From IMG/VR virus record IMGVR_UViG_3300032278_000141, positions 1 to 21,221 of that record: a DNA stretch of 21,221 nt. The stretch is one strand, 5' to 3'. The number at the start of each line of letters is the position of its first letter. Within the stretch, counting starts at the first letter, position 1. The position numbers and the translations under genes were made by a program. Shown one piece after another: positions 3,785-21,211 of the stretch. The stretch is from a virus. The notes beneath the pieces are model-generated. The model saw only the letters and a list, made by a program, of their open reading frames with translations, made no database searches and had not been told where the DNA came from.

Positions 3785-5287
3785 CTAGCCAATATTATAA
3801 ACCATACCTGCAACTTTTTTAGCTGCTACAAATCTACTGCCAAAAGCTGTTCGGAAAGTCAAAACAAATCTACGACGATCTGTTTCTATTTCTTCACGAC
3901 TCTTAATAGTTACATCTCGTTTTTGTCCAACAACAAAGGCATTAGTATGATAAATAACGGCTGACCCCAAAGTATTTCCACTACCAGCAAGAACTCCAGT
4001 TGCACTAGCTGCTCGAATTAATTCTGTTCTGATAATTGGAATACCCAAAACACTAGCTAATTGTCCTTTATCTATTGTCATTTGCGCTTCTCCGATTTTG
4101 TCACGGGTTAGCACTTCAGAAATAGTTAAAAGATCTAGATAAGTTTTCAGGGGGCAAAGTAAACGCATATTGGGCGGATCATAAAACACTTCATTCGTAG
4201 TTCCATCTTTGAAACCACCCAACATTGTTTTAATATCAGCAATAGTAATTGCATTACCGCCGCCATCAACAGAATTGTCAGCAAAATTGCCACCTATCGC
4301 TGTTTTTCTTAGACCCAAGAAGTTCTTTCGAGGATCATTAGCGTCAGTGACACCGCCAGCGGCATCCATGTGAGTTCCGCTTTCATTATCGCCATTAATA
4401 ACACCATCATCGATACCTTTAGCTGCGGCTACTTGCATCTCAGGAATAGTGATATCTTGAACAACATTAACAATACTATCTTCAACAGCTTCTTCCTCGA
4501 TTTCAACACGAACAGCCATTTTGACAGGCGTCAATGTGATGTTTCGAGAACCTGGAGTAGCAGCGCCAATCCAGTTCGCAGAAGTTAGATTGTCTGAAGT
4601 TTGAGTTCCATAAGCGGCCACAGAAATTCCACTGCCAGCACCCGGAATCTTCATTGAATCAGTGCCTTGCGGAATCGTAACACTTGGGAAAGTGCTAGTA
4701 ACTTCATAGTTCTGTTCCATTCTGTTAATGAAATCAGCACTAAACACTGTCGGTATCCATTCAAGACCAGATCCGGCAGTAGTATTATCTAACGCTTTGG
4801 CCAATTCGGTGTTTTTACGAAAATATGTATCGTAATAATTCAATTCTTGCGGATGACGTTTCAGAAAATGAGATAATACAATACAAGTATCATTATGTTT
4901 CTGCAATTCAGAAACAACTTCTTCACGACCTCTAAACTTATCAGCAGGTGTATCGACCATTTTCTTAATAAGTTCTAAGTTCGTACCATTCTCAGTTTCA
5001 GCACGAGCATCATCAGTGGATTGATATTCGTGTCCAGACTGATAATCATCACGAACAGACTTCCGCATATTTGCTTCTAACTTGCCAAAGTCTTCCATCT
5101 GTTCTTTATGCTTTGTATCATACTCTTCTTTAAACTTATCCATCCGTTCTGCTAGATCAGATGTCAAAGCTTCTTGAATATCAGCATCTCGTCTTTTCTT
5201 ATTGATTGTCTCTAAATTATTGCGCCATTTAGTAGCAATCTCAGTAATCTCACGTTTTGCATTTATATGAGCAGTCTTCTCAGCCAT
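3785..5287 (-). CDS. Major capsid protein, HK97 fold
   Basis: A 500-residue protein in the canonical capsid position after protease and scaffold genes. Residues 1-~115 are highly charged and coiled-coil-like (EITEIATKWRNNLETINKKR, MDKFKEEYDTKHKEQMEDF), as in the delta/scaffolding region of HK97-type capsid precursors. The rest has family features: the N-arm/E-loop region ('EWIPTVFSADFINRMEQNYE', VTIPQGTDSMKIPG), a central P-domain region and the terminal strand-rich segment ending with RTAFGSRFVAAKKVAGMV. It forms the icosahedral shell. ATG with SD GAGGTGG about 8 nt upstream. The N-terminal helical region is probably removed by the protease encoded at 5907-6791 (inference from HK97-type maturation). 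Confidence 0.92.
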   Translation of the reverse strand: MAEKTAHINAKREITEIATKWRNNLETINKKRRDADIQEALTSDLAERMDKFKEEYDTKHKEQMEDFGKLEANMRKSVRDDYQSGHEYQSTDDARAETENGTNLELIKKMVDTPADKFRGREEVVSELQKHNDTCIVLSHFLKRHPQELNYYDTYFRKNTELAKALDNTTAGSGLEWIPTVFSADFINRMEQNYEVTSTFPSVTIPQGTDSMKIPGAGSGISVAAYGTQTSDNLTSANWIGAATPGSRNITLTPVKMAVRVEIEEEAVEDSIVNVVQDITIPEMQVAAAKGIDDGVINGDNESGTHMDAAGGVTDANDPRKNFLGLRKTAIGGNFADNSVDGGGNAITIADIKTMLGGFKDGTTNEVFYDPPNMRLLCPLKTYLDLLTISEVLTRDKIGEAQMTIDKGQLASVLGIPIIRTELIRAASATGVLAGSGNTLGSAVIYHTNAFVVGQKRDVTIKSREEIETDRRRFVLTFRTAFGSRFVAAKKVAGMVYNIG

Positions 5288-5289
5288 TG

Positions 5290-5910
5290 TTAAGCCACCT
5301 CGCTTAATAGATTCTCAATTTCGGAATTAAAAGTGTCAAAGTCTTCACCAGAAATATCACCCGCTTCATATTTTTCATTCATTTCAGCAGATAATTCTGT
5401 CAAAGTTTCTAACATTTCAGGAGTAACTATCGATTCATCCTCTTGTTCAGATTCAACAACCGATATCTGCGGACCTTCATCCGTATCGCCTTCCGACTCA
5501 ACGACGGATTCTTCTTCTTTCGAAGTCATTTGATCTTTAATTTCATTGACTGTTTCTAATAAAGTACCAAAACTTTCAGCATTACTAGAAAGATTTTCAG
5601 TCATGTTTTCTACAAGAGATGTCAACTCAGACACTCTTGATTGCAACTCTTCCATTTCGATTGATGATTCACTATCAGATGCAATTACAGCATCACTAGA
5701 ATCAATATCGGAATCTTCTTTCACATCTGACATTTCCAAATCCATATGCCCCGATTCATTTTTTACTAATTTATAATAAGCTTTCGGAACAGCGCCATCA
5801 TCAACAAGTGAAACTATTCTAACTTTTAAGTTTCTAATTCTCGCCTTACGTCGCCGAGGATTGCCCTCTTCATCTTCATCTTCTAATTCAACAACATTAT
5901 CTTTAATCAT
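5290..5910 (-). CDS. Acidic scaffold-like head assembly protein
   Basis: A 206-residue, strongly acidic protein between protease and capsid genes. A short basic segment (PRRRKARIRNLKVRIVSLVDDGAVPKAYY) at ~18-46 resembles the 'SLVD.GAV....F' motif often found next to XkdF-type proteases. The remainder is rich in Asp, Glu and Ser with heptad-like helices (MEELQSRVSELTSLVENMTE) and no catalytic motif. Its ATG overlaps the protease stop (ATGA), and it ends 2 bases before the capsid ATG, so it is tightly coupled to both. Size, charge, coiled coil and place fit an internal scaffolding protein. This is inferred from context, since scaffold sequences are poorly conserved. Confidence 0.65.
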   Translation of the reverse strand: MIKDNVVELEDEDEEGNPRRRKARIRNLKVRIVSLVDDGAVPKAYYKLVKNESGHMDLEMSDVKEDSDIDSSDAVIASDSESSIEMEELQSRVSELTSLVENMTENLSSNAESFGTLLETVNEIKDQMTSKEEESVVESEGDTDEGPQISVVESEQEDESIVTPEMLETLTELSAEMNEKYEAGDISGEDFDTFNSEIENLLSEVA

Positions 5911-11284: not shown

Positions 11285-11869
11285 CTAATCTTCCCCATCT
11301 TTTTTTAAGGCTTCATGTAAGTTAGTTCCCAGTCTTCTCATCCAGCCTCTCAAAAATCTATTTTGATTAGTTCGCTCTGCATCAAAACTACATCCCCTAA
11401 GAACCAAATTCGAATACCAAACTGATAATTCAGCAAAATAATCAAAAATAGTTAAGTTAGCATCCTCCAACGCCGCACGAGTACCTCGACCCGGAACACC
11501 ATCCACATCAATCCAAGAAAATGCACCCTCTTCATCATCTTTAGTGGGATTCAGTTTAGTGTTGCAAGCCATTTGCATAACTCTAGAAGCACCACCACGA
11601 CCTAGATTTACAGCAGCATCAATATATAATGGACGAATTGATTCGGGTACATTCTCTAAACCCAAGTTATTCCAATAATCAAGATAAAATTCGCCCGCGT
11701 CTTCTACTGACATTGTTTCGATTTCGTCAGTAGTAACAGAACGTTCTTTGAATTCTGAATAACTTTTTTGTGTTATTCCAAAATTGGTGGCTCCGCCTTT
11801 GTCATCTGGGTCATTTACAAATCCGCCTTCATGTTCTAAAGTTTGCGCCAACCATGATTCAAAATCCAT
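11285..11869 (-). CDS. Endolysin, GH108-type N-acetylmuramidase
   Basis: A 194-residue lysozyme. The N-terminal catalytic domain of glycoside hydrolase family 108 shows TLEHEGGFVNDPDDKGGATN followed by FGIT (residues ~10-33); E14 in the EGG motif is the expected catalytic acid. The C-terminal half matches the linked peptidoglycan-binding domain (PG_binding_3): LYIDAAVNLGRGGASRVMQ and VDGVPGRGTRAALE. It cleaves host peptidoglycan at lysis. No signal peptide is seen, so export would need a holin; the two-TM proteins at 13139 and 17415 are candidates. ATG with SD AAGGGAG. GH108 endolysins are typical of phages of Gram-negative hosts. Confidence 0.92.
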   Translation of the reverse strand: MDFESWLAQTLEHEGGFVNDPDDKGGATNFGITQKSYSEFKERSVTTDEIETMSVEDAGEFYLDYWNNLGLENVPESIRPLYIDAAVNLGRGGASRVMQMACNTKLNPTKDDEEGAFSWIDVDGVPGRGTRAALEDANLTIFDYFAELSVWYSNLVLRGCSFDAERTNQNRFLRGWMRRLGTNLHEALKKDGED

Positions 11870-11881
11870 CTAATTTCTCCC

Positions 11882-12079
11882 TTAAAAAATCAAAAACTTT
11901 TTCTTTTTCTTTATTTCCGGTCTTCCACTTTTAGTCCATCTATCTCTAGCCATTTTCAACTCACGTTCTGTGAATAAGAAATTGACTTCACCCAATAGTT
12001 TGTTTGTGTCTTTATCACCTGATAACAGGTAATAACTCGACAATTGACCAAATGTATGGCTGTTATTTTCATACCTCAT
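11882..12079 (-). CDS. Small hypothetical protein
   Basis: A 65-residue protein with no recognised domain (MRYENNSHTFGQLSSYYLL ... ERELKMARDRWTKSG). The tail is a run of lysines followed by a short hydrophobic end. I place the start at the ATG at 12079 rather than the upstream GTG at 12094. It forms an ATGA overlap with the stop of the DpdA-like gene and has a GGGAG SD 8-9 nt upstream. The helical ERELKMARDRW segment and basic tail could bind nucleic acid, but this is only an impression. It is coupled between the DpdA-like gene and the endolysin. Confidence 0.7.
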   Translation of the reverse strand: MRYENNSHTFGQLSSYYLLSGDKDTNKLLGEVNFLFTERELKMARDRWTKSGRPEIKKKKKFLIF

Positions 12080-12984
12080 AATACTTTCTCCCACTCGAAT
12101 AAGTCAAGTTGATCGTTATTTCTTGAAAATTTATACCCCTTCTCTGGAACAATAAAAGAATTGATTTCTTTATTAATATAATCCCCATATCTTAAAAACT
12201 CGGCTGCAAACTGAAAATTTACTTGTTCAAAAGTTCTGCTTTTTGTTCGACAATACGGTGATTTGTGAAGTGCTACATTTAAAGAAGATACACTAGAATC
12301 AGAAGAAGAAACCCCTACTGAATGATTCATTTGAAGTTGTTGTAAATTGCCAATACCAAAGCTATGAATTCCATATTCTTTGGGAACTAACTTTCTAATA
12401 AATTCCACAAACTCAAACTTACTCTGTAATATTGTTTCTCTGTTCCCCATATTACTATCATTACCTATACTAATCCCGCCCAATCCAAACATATAACGTT
12501 CAGAATTCAATTCGAAAGCATTTAATTCTCTATCATATAAACTCACACAATATTCATACTCCATCAAATCACAGCCCTGGATAGGCAACACTTTAATCGC
12601 ATTCGTTTCATAATCTAATAGTTTCCCTGCATTTTCTATTGTCTTTTCTATTGCCTGTATAGATGTCATGTTTGCAAGTTTTAACAACTCACTTGTTCTT
12701 CCGCCAGAACTGCTAATGGGAAAATCAATAGCTGCAATATAGTCTGGATCAATTTCATCAGCTAGATCAAACAAATATTGATTGTTATCTAACCATTCAA
12801 TCTCCCCTTTCATTCCCGCAGAAAAAAACCCAGAATCTAGAAATAGTCTTCTAGATAAATTCAAGAACTCTTTTACATGTTTAAATCTAGATACTCGATA
12901 AGCAGAAACTAAAACATCAATCTGATCGGGAACAAATTGCAAAAACTTAGATGAATCAGGCATACACTGAAAATACTTAAACAC
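12076..12984 (-). CDS. DpdA/TGT-like transglycosylase, probable 7-deazaguanine DNA modification enzyme
   Basis: A 302-residue protein with the motif order of the tRNA-guanine transglycosylase TIM barrel and its DpdA branch. These are LFLDSGFFSA (~48-56), a likely substrate-site Asp in YIAAIDFPI (D87), VLPIQG (132-137), YMFGLGGIS (164-172), IHSFGIGN (206-213) and VGVSSSDSSVSS (223-234), the last holding the candidate nucleophile D229. No full Cys4/His zinc site as in bacterial Tgt is evident, which argues against a tRNA enzyme. DpdA enzymes exchange guanine in DNA for a 7-deazaguanine. Together with phage queE (18244-18927) this suggests modified virion DNA. The start is GTG with SD AAAGG 8 nt upstream; the ATG at codon 8 lacks an SD. 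A divergent TGT-like enzyme with another substrate remains possible. Confidence 0.72.
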   Translation of the reverse strand: MFKYFQCMPDSSKFLQFVPDQIDVLVSAYRVSRFKHVKEFLNLSRRLFLDSGFFSAGMKGEIEWLDNNQYLFDLADEIDPDYIAAIDFPISSSGGRTSELLKLANMTSIQAIEKTIENAGKLLDYETNAIKVLPIQGCDLMEYEYCVSLYDRELNAFELNSERYMFGLGGISIGNDSNMGNRETILQSKFEFVEFIRKLVPKEYGIHSFGIGNLQQLQMNHSVGVSSSDSSVSSLNVALHKSPYCRTKSRTFEQVNFQFAAEFLRYGDYINKEINSFIVPEKGYKFSRNNDQLDLFEWEKVL

Positions 12985-13033: not shown

Positions 13034-13067
13034 AAAAAAACTAGTAGTAGCATTAAGCTACTACTAG
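13034..13067 (-). terminator. Strong terminator closing the accessory operon
   Basis: A perfect 11-bp stem, CTAGTAGTAGC / GCTACTACTAG (13067-13057 and 13051-13041 on the minus strand), with a 5-nt loop and seven T (13040-13034). It lies between the holin-like gene (ends 13139) and the DpdA-like gene (GTG at 12984). The plus strand has no T-tract. Confidence 0.9.
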
Positions 13068-13071
13068 CCGC

Positions 13072-13138: not shown

Positions 13139-13522
13139 TCATCTCGCCTGATTGTTATGATTATTATTCTTACCATTGCCCATAGCATATGAAGTTGCTT
13201 CTTGAACTAATTGTGCGTCATCACTAGAATTATTAAACCAAAAATCCGTCAATTTGGCCTGAGTCGTCGCTGTCGCCGTAAGAAGTATTAATAAAAGATC
13301 CTGAACACTGTCAGCAATTTCTGCCTTCGTGGCAGACATAACCAATAAGCCCGCAACACTACCCACCATTACAAACAACAGTCCCGCCGAAAGGAAAAAT
13401 TTCCTCTCCTGACGATATAAAATCAATTTCAAGAGTTGCAAATTGACTTCATGGGCAAGCTCTTTATTACTAGGAGTATCTTCCCCTGAATCTGTTATAA
13501 GATTATTTGTTTCCTCATTCAT
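13139..13522 (-). CDS. Two-TM membrane protein, holin-like
   Basis: A 127-residue protein with a polar acidic N-terminus, a short amphipathic stretch (LQLLKLILYRQER) and two predicted membrane helices: FFLSAGLLFVMVGSVAGLLV (~42-61) and SVQDLLLILLTATATTQAK (~72-90). These are followed by DFWFNNSSDD, which recalls the 'FWFGSS' end of phage holins of the GTA/3-TM type. A hydrophilic Asn-rich tail closes it. A holin would permeabilise the inner membrane to release the endolysin encoded at 11285-11869. The ATG at 13522 has no clear SD. It is the last gene before the terminator at 13034-13067, so probably the final gene of the accessory operon. The holin role is inferred from topology. Confidence 0.68.
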   Translation of the reverse strand: MNEETNNLITDSGEDTPSNKELAHEVNLQLLKLILYRQERKFFLSAGLLFVMVGSVAGLLVMSATKAEIADSVQDLLLILLTATATTQAKLTDFWFNNSSDDAQLVQEATSYAMGNGKNNNHNNQAR

Positions 13523-13745: not shown

Positions 13746-14057
13746 CTACAAAACATCACCATGTCGTCCTGGCGCTTTCGAACTAGAACGACTTCTTATA
13801 GTTCGACCAGTTTGCCTTTCCGTAAATCTTTCCAACATCGCTAAAACCTGTTCCATCATCCACGCTTCAGATGGTAACTTATCTATTTTTTCGTCCCACG
13901 TCATATCTGTAATCGGATTTAGTTTATATTTCTTTTCTATCTCTTTTCTGGCTTCCGAAATAACTTGAAATAATTTCTTCGACAATCCAATATCCTCTGA
14001 ATCTAATTGAATATGTTCCACTAAATTTCTTAAACTTGACGCTTGATCTTCTTTCAA
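13746..14057 (-). CDS. Hypothetical protein coupled to the histidine kinase gene
   Basis: A 103-residue, mostly helical protein (LRNLVEHIQLD, LSKKLFQVISEARKEIEKKY, AWMMEQVLAMLERFTER) with a basic tail (GRTIRSRSSSKAPGRHG). It starts at a TTG that overlaps the kinase stop as TTGA, without a good SD, so translation would be by re-initiation after the kinase. No domain is recognised. The coupling suggests it may work with the kinase, for example as a partner or output protein, but the sequence gives no direct sign of this. Confidence 0.6.
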   Translation of the reverse strand: MKEDQASSLRNLVEHIQLDSEDIGLSKKLFQVISEARKEIEKKYKLNPITDMTWDEKIDKLPSEAWMMEQVLAMLERFTERQTGRTIRSRSSSKAPGRHGDVL

Positions 14058-15430
14058 TTTGTAACAGCGTCTATTTCAGATTGAATCTCAGATAATCTAA
14101 ACGGTTTACCCAGAAATCCATTCATTCCAGATTTGAGACAATCTTCTTTTACATCCCCAACAAGACTTGCCGTCAATGCCACAATTCTAATATTCTTATT
14201 AAATTCTCTAATTAATCTAGTTGTTTCAAAACCATCTATTTCCGGCATCTGCAAATCCATAAATATTATATCATATCCATTATTCTTTTCTTTTTCTATT
14301 GCGATTTGTCCATTTTCTGCCAGTTCTACTTTAACTTCTAGTTTTTCTAAATATCGTTTAGCAACTTGTCTGTTAATTTCATCATCATCTACAACTAAAG
14401 CCGTCAAAAACTCTTTTCTTTCATAAGGCAACAATTCTAAATCGAACTCAAAAGTACTTCCTATACCAAACTTACTATTAATTCTTATTTCTCCACCCAT
14501 TCCCTCAACAAATTTTTTGCAAATTGACAAGCCCAAACCCGTTCCACCATTTTTTCGATTGTTTTTGTCATCTATTTGAGAGAACTCTTCAAAAATGTAA
14601 TCTTTTTTCGAATCAATAATGCCTATCCCAGTATCGATAACTTGAAAAAGAACATTATTACTAGAATTATCGAAAATAAGATTCAGATTAACTGTTCCTT
14701 TTTCAGTGAACTTTATAGCATTGCTAATTAAATTAATCAAAACCTGATTAATTTTCTGTTCATCGCCTATTCTCTGTTGATTAATGCTATCAAAATTATC
14801 ATTTAGAGGATTGAAAACTAAAAACAATCCTTTAGCTGTTGCTAAAGGATTCATTCTATTAATCGTTTCATGACACAAATCAATCAGTTTGAAAGGCTGA
14901 TTTTGATATTCAATCTCAAAAGAATCGTTCTTAGAGCAATCTAATAATTCGTTAACTATAGATAACAATCTATCTGATGATAATATAGCCCTGTCAATAT
15001 CCTCGTTTGTTTCTATATCCAATTTGTTTCTGTTAATCAATCCCAAACTACCCACAATTCCGTTTATGGGTGTTCTAATCTCATGCGACATTCTAGACAA
15101 GAAATCTGTTTTAGCTTGATTGGCATCTTCTGCTACTACTTGTGCATCTTCTGCTACTACTTGTGCTTTCTCTGCTTCAATCAGATTATTCAGAGCCTCT
15201 TTCAATTCAACTTTAACAGAATCCAATTGATTAGAGACAGATTTACCCACATTGTCGGCGACCATATCAATCATCTTCTGTCGCCCTGCCTGTAGATACT
15301 TCTTGTTCTCAGCAGAAATAGCCCGCTGCACAGACAGCAAGGATCGACGGTTGAAATACCCAATACCAGAAATCAGTATCGCCACCAAAATCACCTCATC
15401 AATTAGTAACTGCCACCAAGTTATTATCAT
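14054..15430 (-). CDS. Membrane-anchored hybrid sensor histidine kinase with C-terminal receiver domain
   Basis: A 458-residue protein. A single TM helix (~5-26, LLIDEVILVAILISGIGYF) is followed by a coiled coil (~27-107) and HisKA with FLSRMSHEIRTP (phospho-acceptor H116). The HATPase_c domain has N-box LINLISNAIKFT (N237), G1 DTGIGI (266-271), F-box IFEEFSQID and G2 GGTGLGLSICK (295-305). The REC domain (~343-455) has the acidic pocket VVDDD (348-350), phospho-acceptor D392 in IIFMDLQMP, T420 and K442. All catalytic residues are present, so it should be active. There is no PAS, GAF or periplasmic sensing domain. A 21-nt tandem duplication gives VVAED twice in the linker just before HisKA. 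It is 3 bases from the radical SAM gene. A phage-borne complete hybrid kinase is unusual; it may rewire host phosphorelay signalling (inference). Confidence 0.93.
   Translation of the reverse strand: MIITWWQLLIDEVILVAILISGIGYFNRRSLLSVQRAISAENKKYLQAGRQKMIDMVADNVGKSVSNQLDSVKVELKEALNNLIEAEKAQVVAEDAQVVAEDANQAKTDFLSRMSHEIRTPINGIVGSLGLINRNKLDIETNEDIDRAILSSDRLLSIVNELLDCSKNDSFEIEYQNQPFKLIDLCHETINRMNPLATAKGLFLVFNPLNDNFDSINQQRIGDEQKINQVLINLISNAIKFTEKGTVNLNLIFDNSSNNVLFQVIDTGIGIIDSKKDYIFEEFSQIDDKNNRKNGGTGLGLSICKKFVEGMGGEIRINSKFGIGSTFEFDLELLPYERKEFLTALVVDDDEINRQVAKRYLEKLEVKVELAENGQIAIEKEKNNGYDIIFMDLQMPEIDGFETTRLIREFNKNIRIVALTASLVGDVKEDCLKSGMNGFLGKPFRLSEIQSEIDAVTN
15123..15164 (-). repeat. Perfect 21-nt tandem duplication in histidine kinase linker
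   Basis: 15123-15143 is repeated exactly at 15144-15164. It encodes a seven-residue unit read as AQVVAED twice in the coiled-coil just before HisKA (residues ~89-102). Seven residues equal one coiled-coil heptad, so the frame and helix register are kept. Confidence 0.9.
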
Positions 15431-15433
15431 ATT

Positions 15434-17386
15434 TCAACCCATCATAAATTGATCTAACTGTTCTGGGTGACATTTATAGTTACCTTGCGCTCTGCCAATC
15501 CATGCTGCTTGATGACACCACATTTTCAACGTCGATTCTTGAATTTTATTCTTATAACTATAAGAAATATTACCTTTTATCAACTCAGAATCATCGTTTG
15601 AAACGAATTCTTTCCAATGATAAGAAAAATCATCTTCTTTTATTTCTTCATTTCTATCTCTAGTCATCAACAAAAATACTTGAAACTTAACAAGATCAAA
15701 AATCACTTCATATTCCGTGTTAAAGTTTTTAGAAAACTCTAAGAACAAAACAAATTTACGAATATCATTAGATAAGTCAACAGATTTTAACACACATCTC
15801 AACCATGTCGCCTCTTCAATGGGCCAAAATATATCTGAAAGTGTTTCATCATGATGATTCCACCCTCCTCCAGAGTATCCTGTCTCAATATAATCTTTAA
15901 CAGTCAAATACTCTGTGTTAAAAATAGTGTCGCCATTTTTGCAAAACTCTATGAATATCTCATAAAAATCAATATATTCTAACTTATATTTCTGATAATA
16001 GAATTTAGATATGTATTCAAGGATTCCCAAACTGTGAAACGCTTGTATCGCCCATCCATAAACAAACATCTGTTTCAAGTCTTCAGTGCTGCAAGTATTA
16101 GTACTAACTACTATATCTTCATATTCTTGAATATCACCTCTTGTCTCTACAGACGAATGCCACAAATAAATGGGAGATCGAATTGTTTTTATCTCGTATT
16201 TAGCCTTATATTTAGTCTCATTCATGGGCGCATTGACAAAAACACCACAATTATAAATAAAAACAACGGGTCGAGGAAACAAACCCATCATTTGATTAAG
16301 ACTATTTTTATAACTATCAATAGTCTCGCCTGGCATTCCCATTATTATTTCAGTATAATTTTCGAGACCCTGTCTTCTGAACTGTTTAACAAGCTGACTA
16401 TATTTATTAAATTTGATATTTTTTCTTTTAATGGCAATTAGTGTTGTGTCATCAAGAGACTGAACAGCAAGAGTTACTGCTCGTAACAAATCTGCATCTA
16501 TTAACTCTTTTGCTAAAGGTATAATCTTATCGGATGATACTTTTGCCCATGCGGGTCTAATTCTGCCTGGATAGCCCTTTTCTAGCTTCTCTTCTTTCAA
16601 TTTTCTAGTTAATTCAAAATCACGTTCAGCAAATATACCGAAGTTAGCATCGCAACAATCTATATATGATATTTTGTTATCTGCAAACCACTCAATCTCC
16701 TCGAAAAGTTTGTTTATATCCCATTTTCTCACTTTCGTTTTTGTCGCACTGCCCCAATCACAAAAAGTACATTCGAAAGGGCAGCCCCTATTTGTTTCCC
16801 ACGCAACTATGTAGTCTACGTCATCAACATCTTCGACTAAATCCCAAATCAAATTTGTCAGATAAGGTGAAGGTATACTGTCTAAATCATCAATTCTAGT
16901 TTGGGGCATTGTTCTTAACCCCCTCATCTCTAAACCGTTTATACTTGAATAATCATTGTAAGACAGATAGTTCTTATGCGACATATAGACTTCAAAAATC
17001 TGTTTTAAGGTCTTTTCCCCTTCTTGATGAACAAGAATATCAACATGAGGATAATCAGCAAAGAAATCACCTTCATAGTTAAGAGGAACCTCAGGCCCAC
17101 CATATATAACCGTGCAATCAGGATATTTGTCTTTCACTCTCTCAGCTAAAACATTTGTTATTTCCCAGTTCCAGACATAACAAGAACAAACTAACAAATC
17201 AGGATCTTCAACACGTTCAATATATTCATCTAGCTTATCTCTAAATATAAATGTTTTTTGATAATCAAACTTATCTTTGAGATTAGAAAACGAATTTATA
17301 TATGAAAACAAAGATGCAATGCTATAGGGTACATGAATAGACGATGCATACTTATAATTAAATTGTGAACTGTAGACTTTAATCAT
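15434..17386 (-). CDS. B12-binding-type radical SAM enzyme
   Basis: About 650 residues. The N-terminal ~1-135 form a Rossmann-like cobalamin-binding-type domain (LLVCSCYVWNWEITNVLA, VIYGGPEVP, HVDILVHQEGEKTLKQI) without the DxHxxG motif, as in several B12 radical SAM enzymes. The radical SAM core begins at ETNRGCPFECTFCDWGS. Its cluster cysteines are C202, C206 and C209 (CxxxCxxC), followed by YIDCCDANFG, RAVTLAVQSLDD and MGMPGET. The C-terminal ~250 residues are unassigned and aromatic-rich. Such enzymes perform radical methylations or rearrangements; the substrate is unknown. I start at the ATG at 17386 because GAGG lies 6 nt upstream; an ATG at 17392 is in frame two codons earlier. It is coupled to the histidine kinase and a two-TM gene. 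Confidence 0.9.
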   Translation of the reverse strand: MIKVYSSQFNYKYASSIHVPYSIASLFSYINSFSNLKDKFDYQKTFIFRDKLDEYIERVEDPDLLVCSCYVWNWEITNVLAERVKDKYPDCTVIYGGPEVPLNYEGDFFADYPHVDILVHQEGEKTLKQIFEVYMSHKNYLSYNDYSSINGLEMRGLRTMPQTRIDDLDSIPSPYLTNLIWDLVEDVDDVDYIVAWETNRGCPFECTFCDWGSATKTKVRKWDINKLFEEIEWFADNKISYIDCCDANFGIFAERDFELTRKLKEEKLEKGYPGRIRPAWAKVSSDKIIPLAKELIDADLLRAVTLAVQSLDDTTLIAIKRKNIKFNKYSQLVKQFRRQGLENYTEIIMGMPGETIDSYKNSLNQMMGLFPRPVVFIYNCGVFVNAPMNETKYKAKYEIKTIRSPIYLWHSSVETRGDIQEYEDIVVSTNTCSTEDLKQMFVYGWAIQAFHSLGILEYISKFYYQKYKLEYIDFYEIFIEFCKNGDTIFNTEYLTVKDYIETGYSGGGWNHHDETLSDIFWPIEEATWLRCVLKSVDLSNDIRKFVLFLEFSKNFNTEYEVIFDLVKFQVFLLMTRDRNEEIKEDDFSYHWKEFVSNDDSELIKGNISYSYKNKIQESTLKMWCHQAAWIGRAQGNYKCHPEQLDQFMMG

Positions 17387-17414
17387 CGTCATCCTCAGAT
17401 TTCACACGTTGCAT

Positions 17415-17846
17415 TCAGCCGTTACCATCACTGCCTCTTTGATCGTATAAGGCAACAACCGCAGATGAGAGTATACCCAGCATAACTAGTAATAATCTCT
17501 CAAAAAAAGCGAGTTCTTTTTCGATGCCCACAGTTCCCTTGGGTGACCACCAAGAAACCACACTCATCATCACCATACAGCCCACTAATATTAATACTCC
17601 AATGAAAACTAGCCTGACTACACTTATCTGACCCTGTGTCTTCATCAAAAACGTATTGTTTTTCTCACTAGAAGCTAAATTTTTAGCTAAATCAGTGACT
17701 TGTTCTTCAAGAATTAATATAACTTCGTGATCTGTCTTTCCTTGATAAACGGGATTAGCCGAGTGATTCGAATCGTTAATATTGTTTTCTTCCATTTCAT
17801 CATCATCATCTGTCACTATCGTAACGAAATGAAAGAAAAATGTCAA
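17415..17846 (-). CDS. Two-TM membrane protein of unknown function
   Basis: Up to 143 residues. The N-terminal ~80 residues are acidic with a short coiled coil (VILILEEQVTDLAKNLASSE). Two predicted membrane helices follow: VRLVFIGVLILVGCMVMMSV and ERLLLVMLGILSSAVVALY, with a short polar tail. A TTG start at 17846 overlaps the AP2 stop as TTGA and has AAGGA 12 nt upstream; an ATG at 17795 gives a 126-residue form with no SD. The layout resembles the holin-like protein at 13139-13522 (polar arm, helix, two TMs, hydrophilic tail), so it may be a second holin-like protein. Alternatively it may be a membrane partner of the kinase or the radical SAM enzyme. Confidence 0.65.
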   Translation of the reverse strand: MTFFFHFVTIVTDDDDEMEENNINDSNHSANPVYQGKTDHEVILILEEQVTDLAKNLASSEKNNTFLMKTQGQISVVRLVFIGVLILVGCMVMMSVVSWWSPKGTVGIEKELAFFERLLLVMLGILSSAVVALYDQRGSDGNG

Positions 17847-18244
17847 CCGAAATTTAATTCCTTAACATTATCTAAATTCATGTTTTTAACACCATTGTCA
17901 TATGCAACTGCTGCCCTATAATCTGTCTCAAATGTGCCTAGATGATGTTTTTTCCCCTTATGTATAAAAGATGCTTGCCACTTATTTTTTCGTCCCGCTC
18001 TATACGCCTGAGTATGCAAATTAACGCCTATAAACTTTGATTTGGGATAAGATCCATTACTCGATACAGATTTCGATATAGATTTAGACAAAGGTTTCGA
18101 CGCAGATTTAGAAACCGTATCTTTATAATCGTAAACCCCAACTAAAATTCGAGTCTTATTATCGTCAAAATCATAACACAAATACTCATCATCTCTACGT
18201 ATCCACAAAAGATTTAAATCCCTAATAACACTTTCTTTTTCCAT
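17843..18244 (-). CDS. AP2-domain DNA-binding protein
   Basis: A 133-residue protein with a C-terminal AP2/ERF-type domain (~70-132): SKFIGVNLHTQAYRAGR, KWQASFIHKGKKHHLGTF and TDYRAAVAYDNGVKN, ending ELNFG. These match the 'Y.GV ... W.A.I ... LG.F.T...AA.AYD ... NF' signature. A Ser/Lys-rich linker (SKSASKPLSKSISKSVSS, ~45-62) joins it to an N-terminal ~40 residues with possible beta strands. In phages AP2 domains usually sit in HNH homing endonucleases; here no HNH motif is present, so it may be a free-standing DNA binder or a decayed endonuclease. ATG overlaps the queE stop by one base (TAATG). Confidence 0.85.
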   Translation of the reverse strand: MEKESVIRDLNLLWIRRDDEYLCYDFDDNKTRILVGVYDYKDTVSKSASKPLSKSISKSVSSNGSYPKSKFIGVNLHTQAYRAGRKNKWQASFIHKGKKHHLGTFETDYRAAVAYDNGVKNMNLDNVKELNFG

Positions 18245-18927
18245 TAAATTCCTCTCTTATTTCCCCAAATATCAATATGCAATCGTGTTGAATATCTGTA
18301 TCCCCACTCTTTACACAAATCAATCACCCATTCCTGTTTATTCTGTAACTCTTCTTGATTTTTAGCTTGGGGCATTAAATATATTTTATCGCCCTTAACA
18401 CCTAAGAATCGTTGAAGATATAAAACTTCTGTAAAATCTTGTGGATACTCAATAACAAACTTTAACTGAAAATCAGTTTCATTAATCATTTTTTTCAGTA
18501 CATTCAATTGAAGTCTGTTTTTTTCTTGTAGATGTCTTTCCTTTGTTGAAATGGGAATTGAATTACTTAATTTGGGACTTATCGAAAGCAAATCAATCTC
18601 TAACGAACAAAAAATAATTCCCGCTGTTTCTATTGTTATATGATATTTTTTTTCTTTAAGAATTTGACACAATTTTATTAATTGTTGTTTCTGTAAATAG
18701 GGTTCTCCCCCTGTAATTACAATGTATTTCGTTTTGTATTGATCAATTTTATCTATCAAATTCGATAAATCGATATAGTTTTCTTCCGCTTCCCATGATG
18801 TATAAGGGGTATCACACCACAAACATCTCAAGGGACAGCCACTAAATCTAACAAATGTACTGGGAACCCCAATAAGCTGCCCTTCACCTTGAATAGAATA
18901 AAATATTTCGCTTAAATTAACCTTCAT
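18244..18927 (-). CDS. queE: 7-carboxy-7-deazaguanine synthase
   Basis: A 227-residue radical SAM protein with the QueE signature. It has EIFYSIQGEG near the N-terminus, FVRFSGCPLRCLWCDT with cluster cysteines C31, C35 and C38, ITGGEPYL (71-78), TIETAG, 'ISPKLSNS' and a C-terminal TRLHIDIWGN. It converts 6-carboxy-tetrahydropterin to CDG, the committed step to preQ0, queuosine and phage deazaguanine DNA bases. Other pathway genes (folE, queD, queC) are not in this window; they may lie elsewhere or come from the host. The ATG at 18927 abuts the U-tract of a terminator hairpin and has no upstream SD. The conserved N-terminus rules out a later start. First gene of the accessory operon. Confidence 0.95.
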   Translation of the reverse strand: MKVNLSEIFYSIQGEGQLIGVPSTFVRFSGCPLRCLWCDTPYTSWEAEENYIDLSNLIDKIDQYKTKYIVITGGEPYLQKQQLIKLCQILKEKKYHITIETAGIIFCSLEIDLLSISPKLSNSIPISTKERHLQEKNRLQLNVLKKMINETDFQLKFVIEYPQDFTEVLYLQRFLGVKGDKIYLMPQAKNQEELQNKQEWVIDLCKEWGYRYSTRLHIDIWGNKRGI

Positions 18928-20428: not shown

Positions 20429-20450
20429 TGTAAGCTTATATAAGCTTACA
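20429..20450. repeat. 22-bp perfect palindrome, candidate operator
   Basis: The half-site TGTAAGCTTAT (20429-20439) is followed immediately by its exact reverse complement (20440-20450). The palindrome covers the stop codon of the HTH gene and lies ~80 bp upstream of the start of the next gene (20350). There is no T-run, so it is not an intrinsic terminator. Perfect symmetry without a spacer suits a dimeric regulator, perhaps the HTH protein encoded beside it (inference). Confidence 0.7.
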
Positions 20451-20892
20451 TTGCACAATCGATATCCTTAGCCAATTGATGATAATATTCTGTAATCTCT
20501 TGATGCAGCCCTGAAGAAAAAACTTCCAATATTCTGTCTAGCGTTTTTCCCTCCTCTATCCACCCGCTAACCCATCTTTTTCTGTCCGATTGCACCCGCT
20601 CAATCGTATCCAAAGTCGCATCATGACGATTTGTTACCGTCGAACCACGTAGCCTGTACGTCGATTTGGGTTTGTACCCCCTCCCTCTGCTTCCCCCATT
20701 TAGACTATCCGCTTCCGCTAATGAATCAATCTTGATTAACCAGCCCTTCGTGTTTTCTTTCTTCCTTAATGTTAAGGGCGCCTCCGCAACCCCTTCCACC
20801 GTTCTCCTCACCCATGTGTAAATCGTATACCTGCTTCTATTTACCCACTCCGCTGCCTCCCGCACCGTCATCCATTCCTCTTCATTCATCAT
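20446..20892 (-). CDS. MerR/excisionase-type helix-turn-helix protein
   Basis: A ~148-residue protein. The N-terminus (EEWMTVREAAEWVNRSRYTI then YTWVRRT, and LRKKENTKGWLIKIDSL) is a winged HTH of the MerR/excisionase (HTH_17-like) kind: helix, tight turn, recognition helix, wing. The C-terminal half is a long helical region (TLDTIERVQSDRKRWVSGWI, ILEVFSSGLHQEITEYYHQL), possibly for oligomerisation. I choose the ATG at 20892 (SD GGGAG 10 nt upstream) over a TTG at 20898. It overlaps the T5orf172 gene by 11 nt. Its stop codon lies inside a 22-bp perfect palindrome (20429-20450) that could be a regulator's operator. Likely a phage transcription regulator. Confidence 0.8.
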   Translation of the reverse strand: MMNEEEWMTVREAAEWVNRSRYTIYTWVRRTVEGVAEAPLTLRKKENTKGWLIKIDSLAEADSLNGGSRGRGYKPKSTYRLRGSTVTNRHDATLDTIERVQSDRKRWVSGWIEEGKTLDRILEVFSSGLHQEITEYYHQLAKDIDCAM

Positions 20893-21211
20893 ACTCAAAA
20901 TACTCCCTTATCTCTTCCTTAACCCCATAACTCTCTGCAAACATATTTCTATATTTTGATATTTCCTGCTCCATATTGGGAATATCAAACCATTCACCCG
21001 ACTTTAATCTATACGATTTAAATACTTTGTGATAATCCGCCTCCAACTCCTTAGGCCGCCCCGTCCAATCCTGACCCAAAACTAGCAACCCCACTGGCAC
21101 ATTGTTCTGTAACTGCCTTAACCTCTTGTCGAAATTATACGTGTACCCAATCTTTAAATAATTTGTGCCCTCCATGTTTATGAAATAAACACACCCCTCC
21201 TCCTCATTCAT
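20882..21211 (-). CDS. T5orf172/Mug113-type GIY-YIG-like protein
   Basis: A 109-residue protein matching the T5orf172/MUG113 domain, a GIY-YIG nuclease relative. The domain shows GCVYFINMEGTNYLKIGYTY (6-25), NFDKRLRQLQNN, VLGQDWTGRPKELEADYHKVF and KSGEWFDI. The YFI and KIGYT strands and the arginine helix correspond to the GIY-YIG core; the Glu in GRPKELEADYH is the usual metal ligand position. Such proteins are common in phages, often in mobile or anti-host roles. Here it stands alone without the KilA-N or Bro domain often fused to it. ATG at 21211; the bases upstream leave only a few codons of another frame before the window end. Confidence 0.85.
   Translation of the reverse strand: MNEEEGCVYFINMEGTNYLKIGYTYNFDKRLRQLQNNVPVGLLVLGQDWTGRPKELEADYHKVFKSYRLKSGEWFDIPNMEQEISKYRNMFAESYGVKEEIREYFEYDE

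Follow-up and report, generated by a model that had tools for sequence, protein, structure and literature searches.

A putative membrane-anchored hybrid histidine kinase of a virus-only family, encoded by phages beside small membrane proteins and lysis genes

The DNA analysed here, referred to as the window, is the whole of IMG/VR record IMGVR_UViG_3300032278_000141, a contig of 21,221 nt (21.2 kb) from an uncultured virus of bacteria. On the evidence of sequence comparisons, it encodes a hybrid histidine kinase belonging to a previously unnamed virus-only family, beside small membrane proteins and lysis genes. Most likely, this kinase would act as a membrane-driven phage signalling protein, feeding or perturbing a host phosphorelay around lysis. 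To the full reading, namely a short hybrid kinase confined to phages, carried near lysis genes in a mobile and optional cassette together with two small proteins (A and B), and having its output in a host phosphorelay, we assign a probability of about one half. The domain architecture, the conservation of the catalytic residues, the phage-only clade, the linkage to A and B and the exchange and deletion of the cassette were directly observed. The features discussed below are collected in Table 1.

Table 1. Positions in the window of the kinase, its domains and the neighbouring features.
Feature	Position	Strand	Basis or remark
Sensorless membrane-anchored hybrid histidine kinase, 458 aa	14054..15430	-	Pfam, hydropathy, relatives
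Single N-terminal TM helix, residues 1-27	15350..15430	-	Hydropathy; AF2 helix
Juxtamembrane coiled-coil helix, residues 40-104, AQVVAED heptad repeated	15119..15313	-	Conserved in phage family
HisKA/DHp domain, phospho-acceptor H116	14921..15115	-	Pfam and residue alignment
HATPase_c domain, N237, G1/F/G2 boxes	14432..14767	-	Pfam and residue alignment
Receiver domain, D348/D349, D392, T420, K442	14072..14398	-	Pfam and residue alignment
Small ORF, TTG start overlapping kinase stop	13746..14057	-	Homologues adjoin B or kinase in L013 and L096; near kinase in L100
Protein A: small membrane protein, TM segment, conserved KLTDFWFNNSSDDAQLV tail	13139..13522	-	In 11/12 records of group
Strongest terminator-like hairpin of region, 13 pairs, T tail	13039..13069	-	Just after A
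GH108 endolysin	11285..11869	-	Pfam; downstream of cassette
B12-binding radical SAM protein	15434..17392	-	Same tight operon; 3-nt gap to kinase
Protein B: coiled coil and two TM helices	17415..17795	-	66-76% identical in most relatives
Promoter-like TTGACA-17-TACGAT	17818..17846	-	Just upstream of B

An earlier note on this DNA, made from the sequence alone, had described a complete hybrid histidine kinase with intact catalytic elements, and both points are confirmed by our data. Specifically, three Pfam matches, all far exceeding the curated cut-offs, cover HisKA (residues 106-170, 6e-16), HATPase_c (222-333, 7e-26) and Response_reg (345-453, 3e-27). Residue alignment located H116, N237, the D266/G268/G270 box, F283, G298/G300, the acidic pair D348/D349, D392, T420 and K442. 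The protein thus has the histidine in the motif SHEIRTP, the N, G1, F and G2 boxes, and a C-terminal receiver with its DD, D, T/S and K positions, as defines a hybrid histidine kinase of the HisKA type, and by sequence this identity is well supported. The catalytic positions are moreover kept in all eight members of the family described below, in agreement with the view that the gene is not decaying. A sensor or input domain is usual, though not obligatory, in hybrid histidine kinases. Pfam and NCBIfam detected none in the window kinase, hydropathy indicated one TM segment, and AlphaFold predicted one continuous helix from residue 5 to residue 130, leading from the TM segment to the DHp domain, with low confidence between residues 50 and 100; the membrane anchor and coiled coil without input domain proposed earlier are therefore borne out. 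For the kinase, the PADLOC matches were all weak.

The helix between membrane and DHp contains an exact 21-bp tandem duplication (about 15105-15170, minus strand), which encodes AQVVAED twice. Among relatives, the copy number of this heptad varies by whole units, the kinases of contigs L098 and L101 being 7 residues shorter and that of L012 14 residues shorter, and such exact-heptad differences are what a functional coiled coil would be expected to show. In addition, mean identity within the family is 63% in the DHp domain (pairwise; the best conserved part), 48% in the juxtamembrane segment and 27% in the TM segment. The conservation of the juxtamembrane segment compared with the TM segment, taken together with the whole-heptad length changes, argues for a working signalling helix. 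The kinase of L013 departs from the heptad rule (+4 residues), which we count against our explanation. With respect to L101, the TM segment of the window kinase is 67% identical, compared to 50% over the whole protein.

The phage nature of the contig, as assumed in the earlier note, was confirmed by the identification through Pfam and PHROG of TerL, portal, capsid and GH108 endolysin genes, all on the same strand as the kinase; by its gene content, the window is part of a phage genome. The succession kinase / A / TerS / TerL / portal / capsid is found again in L099, a contig of a related phage, which makes a chimeric window contig very unlikely. Within the window the kinase gene starts 3 nt past the stop codon of the radical SAM gene and ends in a stop codon that overlaps the TTG start of the next ORF. 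The tight gene spacing, together with the promoter-like site before B and the hairpin after A, suggests a single transcription unit composed of B, the radical SAM gene, the kinase, two small ORFs and A; promoter-like sites in this region are no commoner than in shuffled sequences, so that the site before B, taken by itself, does not exceed chance expectation.

The radical SAM gene is not conserved beside the kinase in the other records. Its relatives in L002 and L003 (63-64% identical) lie within a long cluster of sugar and glycosyltransferase-like genes without a kinase, and the radical SAM protein was accordingly ruled out as a conserved kinase partner. It resembles the KedN5-family C-methyltransferases, below the cut-off, and also matches the PADLOC candidate PDC-M51A (1e-34).

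Relatives of the kinase were searched through alignment-based scans of the 2.9 million IMG/VR contigs, which led to the identification of seven further contigs encoding sensorless kinases with this architecture (L011, L012, L013, L098, L099, L100 and L101). The L099 kinase is 5'-truncated, being cut by the contig end, while the other six are full-length; a single-protein scan of viral contigs for kinase relatives gave no match. Pairwise identities among the eight proteins range from 40 to 67%. All the catalytic positions are kept, with T420 replaced by S in two kinases and one G2 glycine varying in two. The best bacterial matches listed are weaker than the phage relatives (4e-73 versus 6e-99 or better), and those listed align mostly from kinase residue 60-100 onward.

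The earlier note envisaged a single acquisition from a bacterial donor, to be traced by phylogeny of the HisKA and REC domains. No recent donor emerged from the trees; instead, a phage-only clade distributed over eight IMG/VR contigs was found. In the kinase-core tree, built from the 8 phage proteins, 79 bacterial proteins and 30 other viral-contig kinases, the phage kinases occupy one side of a branch with an SH-aLRT support of 100 and a length of 0.88; in the receiver-only tree, the clade is supported by an SH-aLRT of 98. The clade is monophyletic and free of bacterial members with respect to a bacterial sample consisting of the 80 best loci from a single scan, and a bacterial sister may lie outside those loci. 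Since both trees recover the clade, kinase and receiver were inherited together, and the long, well-supported branch indicates that the family is old. These trees rule out that the gene was recently taken up from a bacterial donor that could be traced. Between the window and L099 kinases dN is 0.43 versus a dS of 2.2, the latter being near saturation, as dS mostly was across comparisons.

Proteins A and B are recurrent companions of this kinase. The earlier suggestion that the same neighbourhood be searched for in viral metagenomes proved fruitful: besides the gene order repeated in L099, A and B recur in the kinase records. A whole-record search over a group of 12 records identified A in 11 and an intact B in 10, with a B remnant in one more, so that every record has A or B. 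In the same group the kinase is intact in eight (one cut by the contig end) and reduced to a scar in two. All eight kinase records carry A, B or both, and four of the six contigs found via B alone also carry the kinase. In L011, L012, L098, L100 and L101 the gene immediately upstream of the kinase is A or B, with B adjoining the kinase in L011, L012 and L100. L013, where B has the opposite orientation and the fragment contains no A, again counts against our explanation.

Neither A nor B had a match in 50,697 cultured-phage records, and neither gave a significant Pfam or PHROG match, so that no annotation, as a holin or otherwise, rose above noise. Both are small TM proteins near an endolysin. 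The predicted structure of B is of low confidence (69), without a fold match. A search of 399 genomes from the Halomonas phylum found no match to either protein and is uninformative on the host. A and B would be the natural candidates for an input to the kinase.

Comparison of closely related records revealed how the cassette is gained, exchanged and lost. L011 (4526-9499) and L012 (3564-8537) share a stretch of 4,974 bp at 97% identity, which ends 23 nt short of B; past this point, identity falls to 72% for B (DNA) and to 48% for the kinase (protein), which places a recombination breakpoint where the B-kinase pair begins. A second comparison involves L098 and L214/L215, in which A is 98% identical at the protein level and the flanking DNA is 86-93% identical. 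Specifically, L098 (10001-11466) contains A, the kinase and then the last TM helix of B alone, whereas L214 (10346-10859) contains A, a kinase scar in which the first codons run straight into the final ~136 nt of the receiver, and then an intact B; L215 likewise has the scar and retains B. The ancestor of these phages likely had the order A-kinase-B, each line having lost a different gene. The scar in L214/L215 and the B remnant in L098 indicate that the kinase is optional and that B and the kinase can each occur without the other, an obligate pair being ruled out by L098 and L214. In addition, the kinase was not seen in the fragments L096 and L097. The TerL proteins of L099 and L096 are related to that of the window. 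Among kinase phages the structural genes differ, with Dit-like and other tail proteins in L011 and L101 and a portal beside the kinase in L013, which argues that the cassette crosses phage lineages. In the 133-kb record L100, an ORF a few kb upstream of the kinase (4578-5873) resembles by eye a TnpB-type transposon nuclease.

TorS and BarA feed phosphorelays. Together with ArcB they gave the best curated family scores and share the HisKA-HATPase-REC core with the window kinase (TorS, TIGR02956; BarA/GacS, NF008318; ArcB, NF008302), which, in contrast to them, has no periplasmic, HAMP or PAS sensor part, and in which no C-terminal Hpt was found. The scores of these three classes remained far below the respective curated cut-offs (TorS 302/676.5, BarA 276/890 and ArcB 239/838 bits), and that of LuxQ likewise fell short (264/1200 bits). 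In ShkA of Caulobacter, an extra pseudo-receiver gates the kinase by c-di-GMP. ShkA (PDB 6qrj, labelled hybrid kinase and the best full-length fold match) and the GacS kinase core (PDB 7z8n) were the best fold matches; unlike ShkA, the window kinase lacks the pseudo-receiver and has a TM anchor.

A phage histidine kinase described earlier is reportedly AgrC of a C. difficile phage. This work (Hargreaves 2014) is considered here as cited in PMC6302217, which describes a hybrid sensor kinase on hot-spring phage genomes; that kinase is phage-encoded like ours, and is set apart, by description rather than by sequence, in that no phage-only family or cassette is described. PhoR-like histidine kinases are reported as auxiliary genes of soil phages (PMC10987575) and share with the window kinase the phage contig and the conserved active residues; they cluster with bacterial PhoR of different phyla, whereas the window kinase has a fused receiver and belongs to a phage-only family. 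On the window kinase the PhoR model scored 138 bits against a cut-off of 334.2, which separates it from PhoR-type auxiliary genes. The rarity attributed to phage-encoded hybrid kinases in the earlier note holds for the window family (8 contigs found among 2.9 million in IMG/VR) and not for phage histidine kinases generally, already reported (PMC10987575, PMC6302217). A phage-only sensorless hybrid family with an exchangeable A/B cassette was not found in the open-access papers searched.

In INPHARED, matches to the kinase are below 40% identity, and the majority of the examined ones prove to be bacterial DNA filed under a phage label (e.g. CAKLQH020000014, AGRM01000002 and several MT835xxx), so that bacterial genes inflate the counts of 'phage' histidine kinases. 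The sole genuine-looking kinase record among those examined is a 735-kb uncultured phage (LR756501, L008). Its kinase shares the HisKA-HATPase-REC organisation, is longer (a 757-residue open frame with an N-terminal part PAS-like by eye), is 29-31% identical to that of the window and was not placed in the tree of the phage family.

As to the output, a search for Hpt domains gave no match in 10 phage records (E <= 1), the window kinase included, and exactly one receiver was found per kinase record, including those of 133, 60, 41 and 39 kb, with no second receiver. All the records are probably incomplete, and an Hpt could lie outside them. This absence points to a host Hpt as the most likely destination of the D392 phosphate, or to a pairing of the phage kinase with host kinases. 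Kinase activity, input, output and timing are what we infer, and they could be connected as follows. An input from the membrane, or from membrane proteins encoded alongside, would be transmitted via the single TM helix and the heptad-tuned signalling helix; the kinase would autophosphorylate at H116 and pass the phosphate to D392 of its own receiver; the output would reach a host phosphorelay of the BarA/TorS/ArcB kind, assuming a host Hpt, and host gene expression would be altered around the time of lysis. The phosphorelay part fits the absence of Hpt and second receiver in the phage records, while the membrane and lysis part is circumstantial, deriving from conserved neighbours that are two small membrane proteins and lysis-like genes. 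Phages with this kinase would thus probably tap or override host signalling late in infection. A broader proposal, which we put forward tentatively, is that unrelated phages exchange A, B and the kinase as a self-contained cassette, in which a phage membrane protein would be a detachable sensor coupling membrane state during infection to host phosphorelays or lysis timing.

The same observations can be read differently. The kinase might be a non-sensing decoy that disables host stress or defence signalling with no need of an input, either by pairing with the hybrid kinases of the host or by draining their phosphate. The lack of a sensor domain in every family member would agree with this, as would the resemblance of the well-conserved DHp domain, in sequence and fold, to BarA/GacS and RetS. 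RetS, which inhibits GacS autophosphorylation (PMC4866733), offers a precedent, and in Serratia CRISPR-Cas is under the control of a GacAS-family system (PMC8450108). A pure decoy, however, needs no N237, ATP lid glycines or D392, yet these are kept in 8/8 kinases, and the TM anchor with its heptad-tuned helix suggests an input; we consider a decoy rather unlikely, though deserving attention. An improbable role, in our opinion, is that of a lysis timer internal to the phage, in which the kinase-receiver switch would directly target A, B or some other membrane protein of the phage without any host pathway. It would account for the missing Hpt and second receiver and for the A/B cassette near the endolysin in the window and in L096, and a downstream 143-aa protein in L011, L098 and L214 weakly resembles holin and Rz-like spanin families. 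Conversely, A and B are putative lysis proteins at most, the kinase and B were each lost independently, and we know of no receiver controlling a holin, which weighs against a timer.

That the gene is a selfish or neutral passenger (moron), with no effect on infection, is very unlikely: its deletion in L214/L215 and its absence from the L096 and L097 fragments show it to be optional, but a neutral passenger would decay, and here catalytic residues and architecture are kept in eight diverged phages of an old clade. Bacterial contamination or a chimeric contig, the danger pointed out in the earlier note, is a legitimate concern given that many public 'phage' records with kinases are bacterial DNA. 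We regard it as ruled out by the synteny with L099 and by the near-identical phages L098 and L214, in which kinase and kinase scar share one site; the same-strand operon is also continuous with TerS, TerL, portal and capsid.

Phages hijack transcription and metabolism. Intact hybrid kinases found only in phages, kept and yet swapped or lost as a cassette, would suggest that phages repeatedly resort to reading or overriding the two-component signalling of their hosts. A virus that senses the cell membrane and decides on lysis or host reprogramming by phosphotransfer becomes a testable idea, for which A and B, absent from cultured-phage records, are concrete candidate partners of the kinase.

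Further observations concern the rest of the contig. The window structural genes from portal to tail fibre are matched at 100% (the last at 99.9%) by L091 (IMGVR 3300032820_000143), which runs past the left end of the window and stops short of the kinase. A QueE-like gene (12076-12984, minus strand; phrog_2076, 1e-57) and a weakly matching TGT/DpdA-like gene (18244-18927, minus strand; Pfam TGT, E 0.013) make a 7-deazaguanine DNA modification possible in this phage. Finally, a winged-HTH protein (HTH_29; 20446-20898, minus strand), possibly a phage regulator, has homologues that directly follow the kinase gene in L099 and L101, and a further one in L214.
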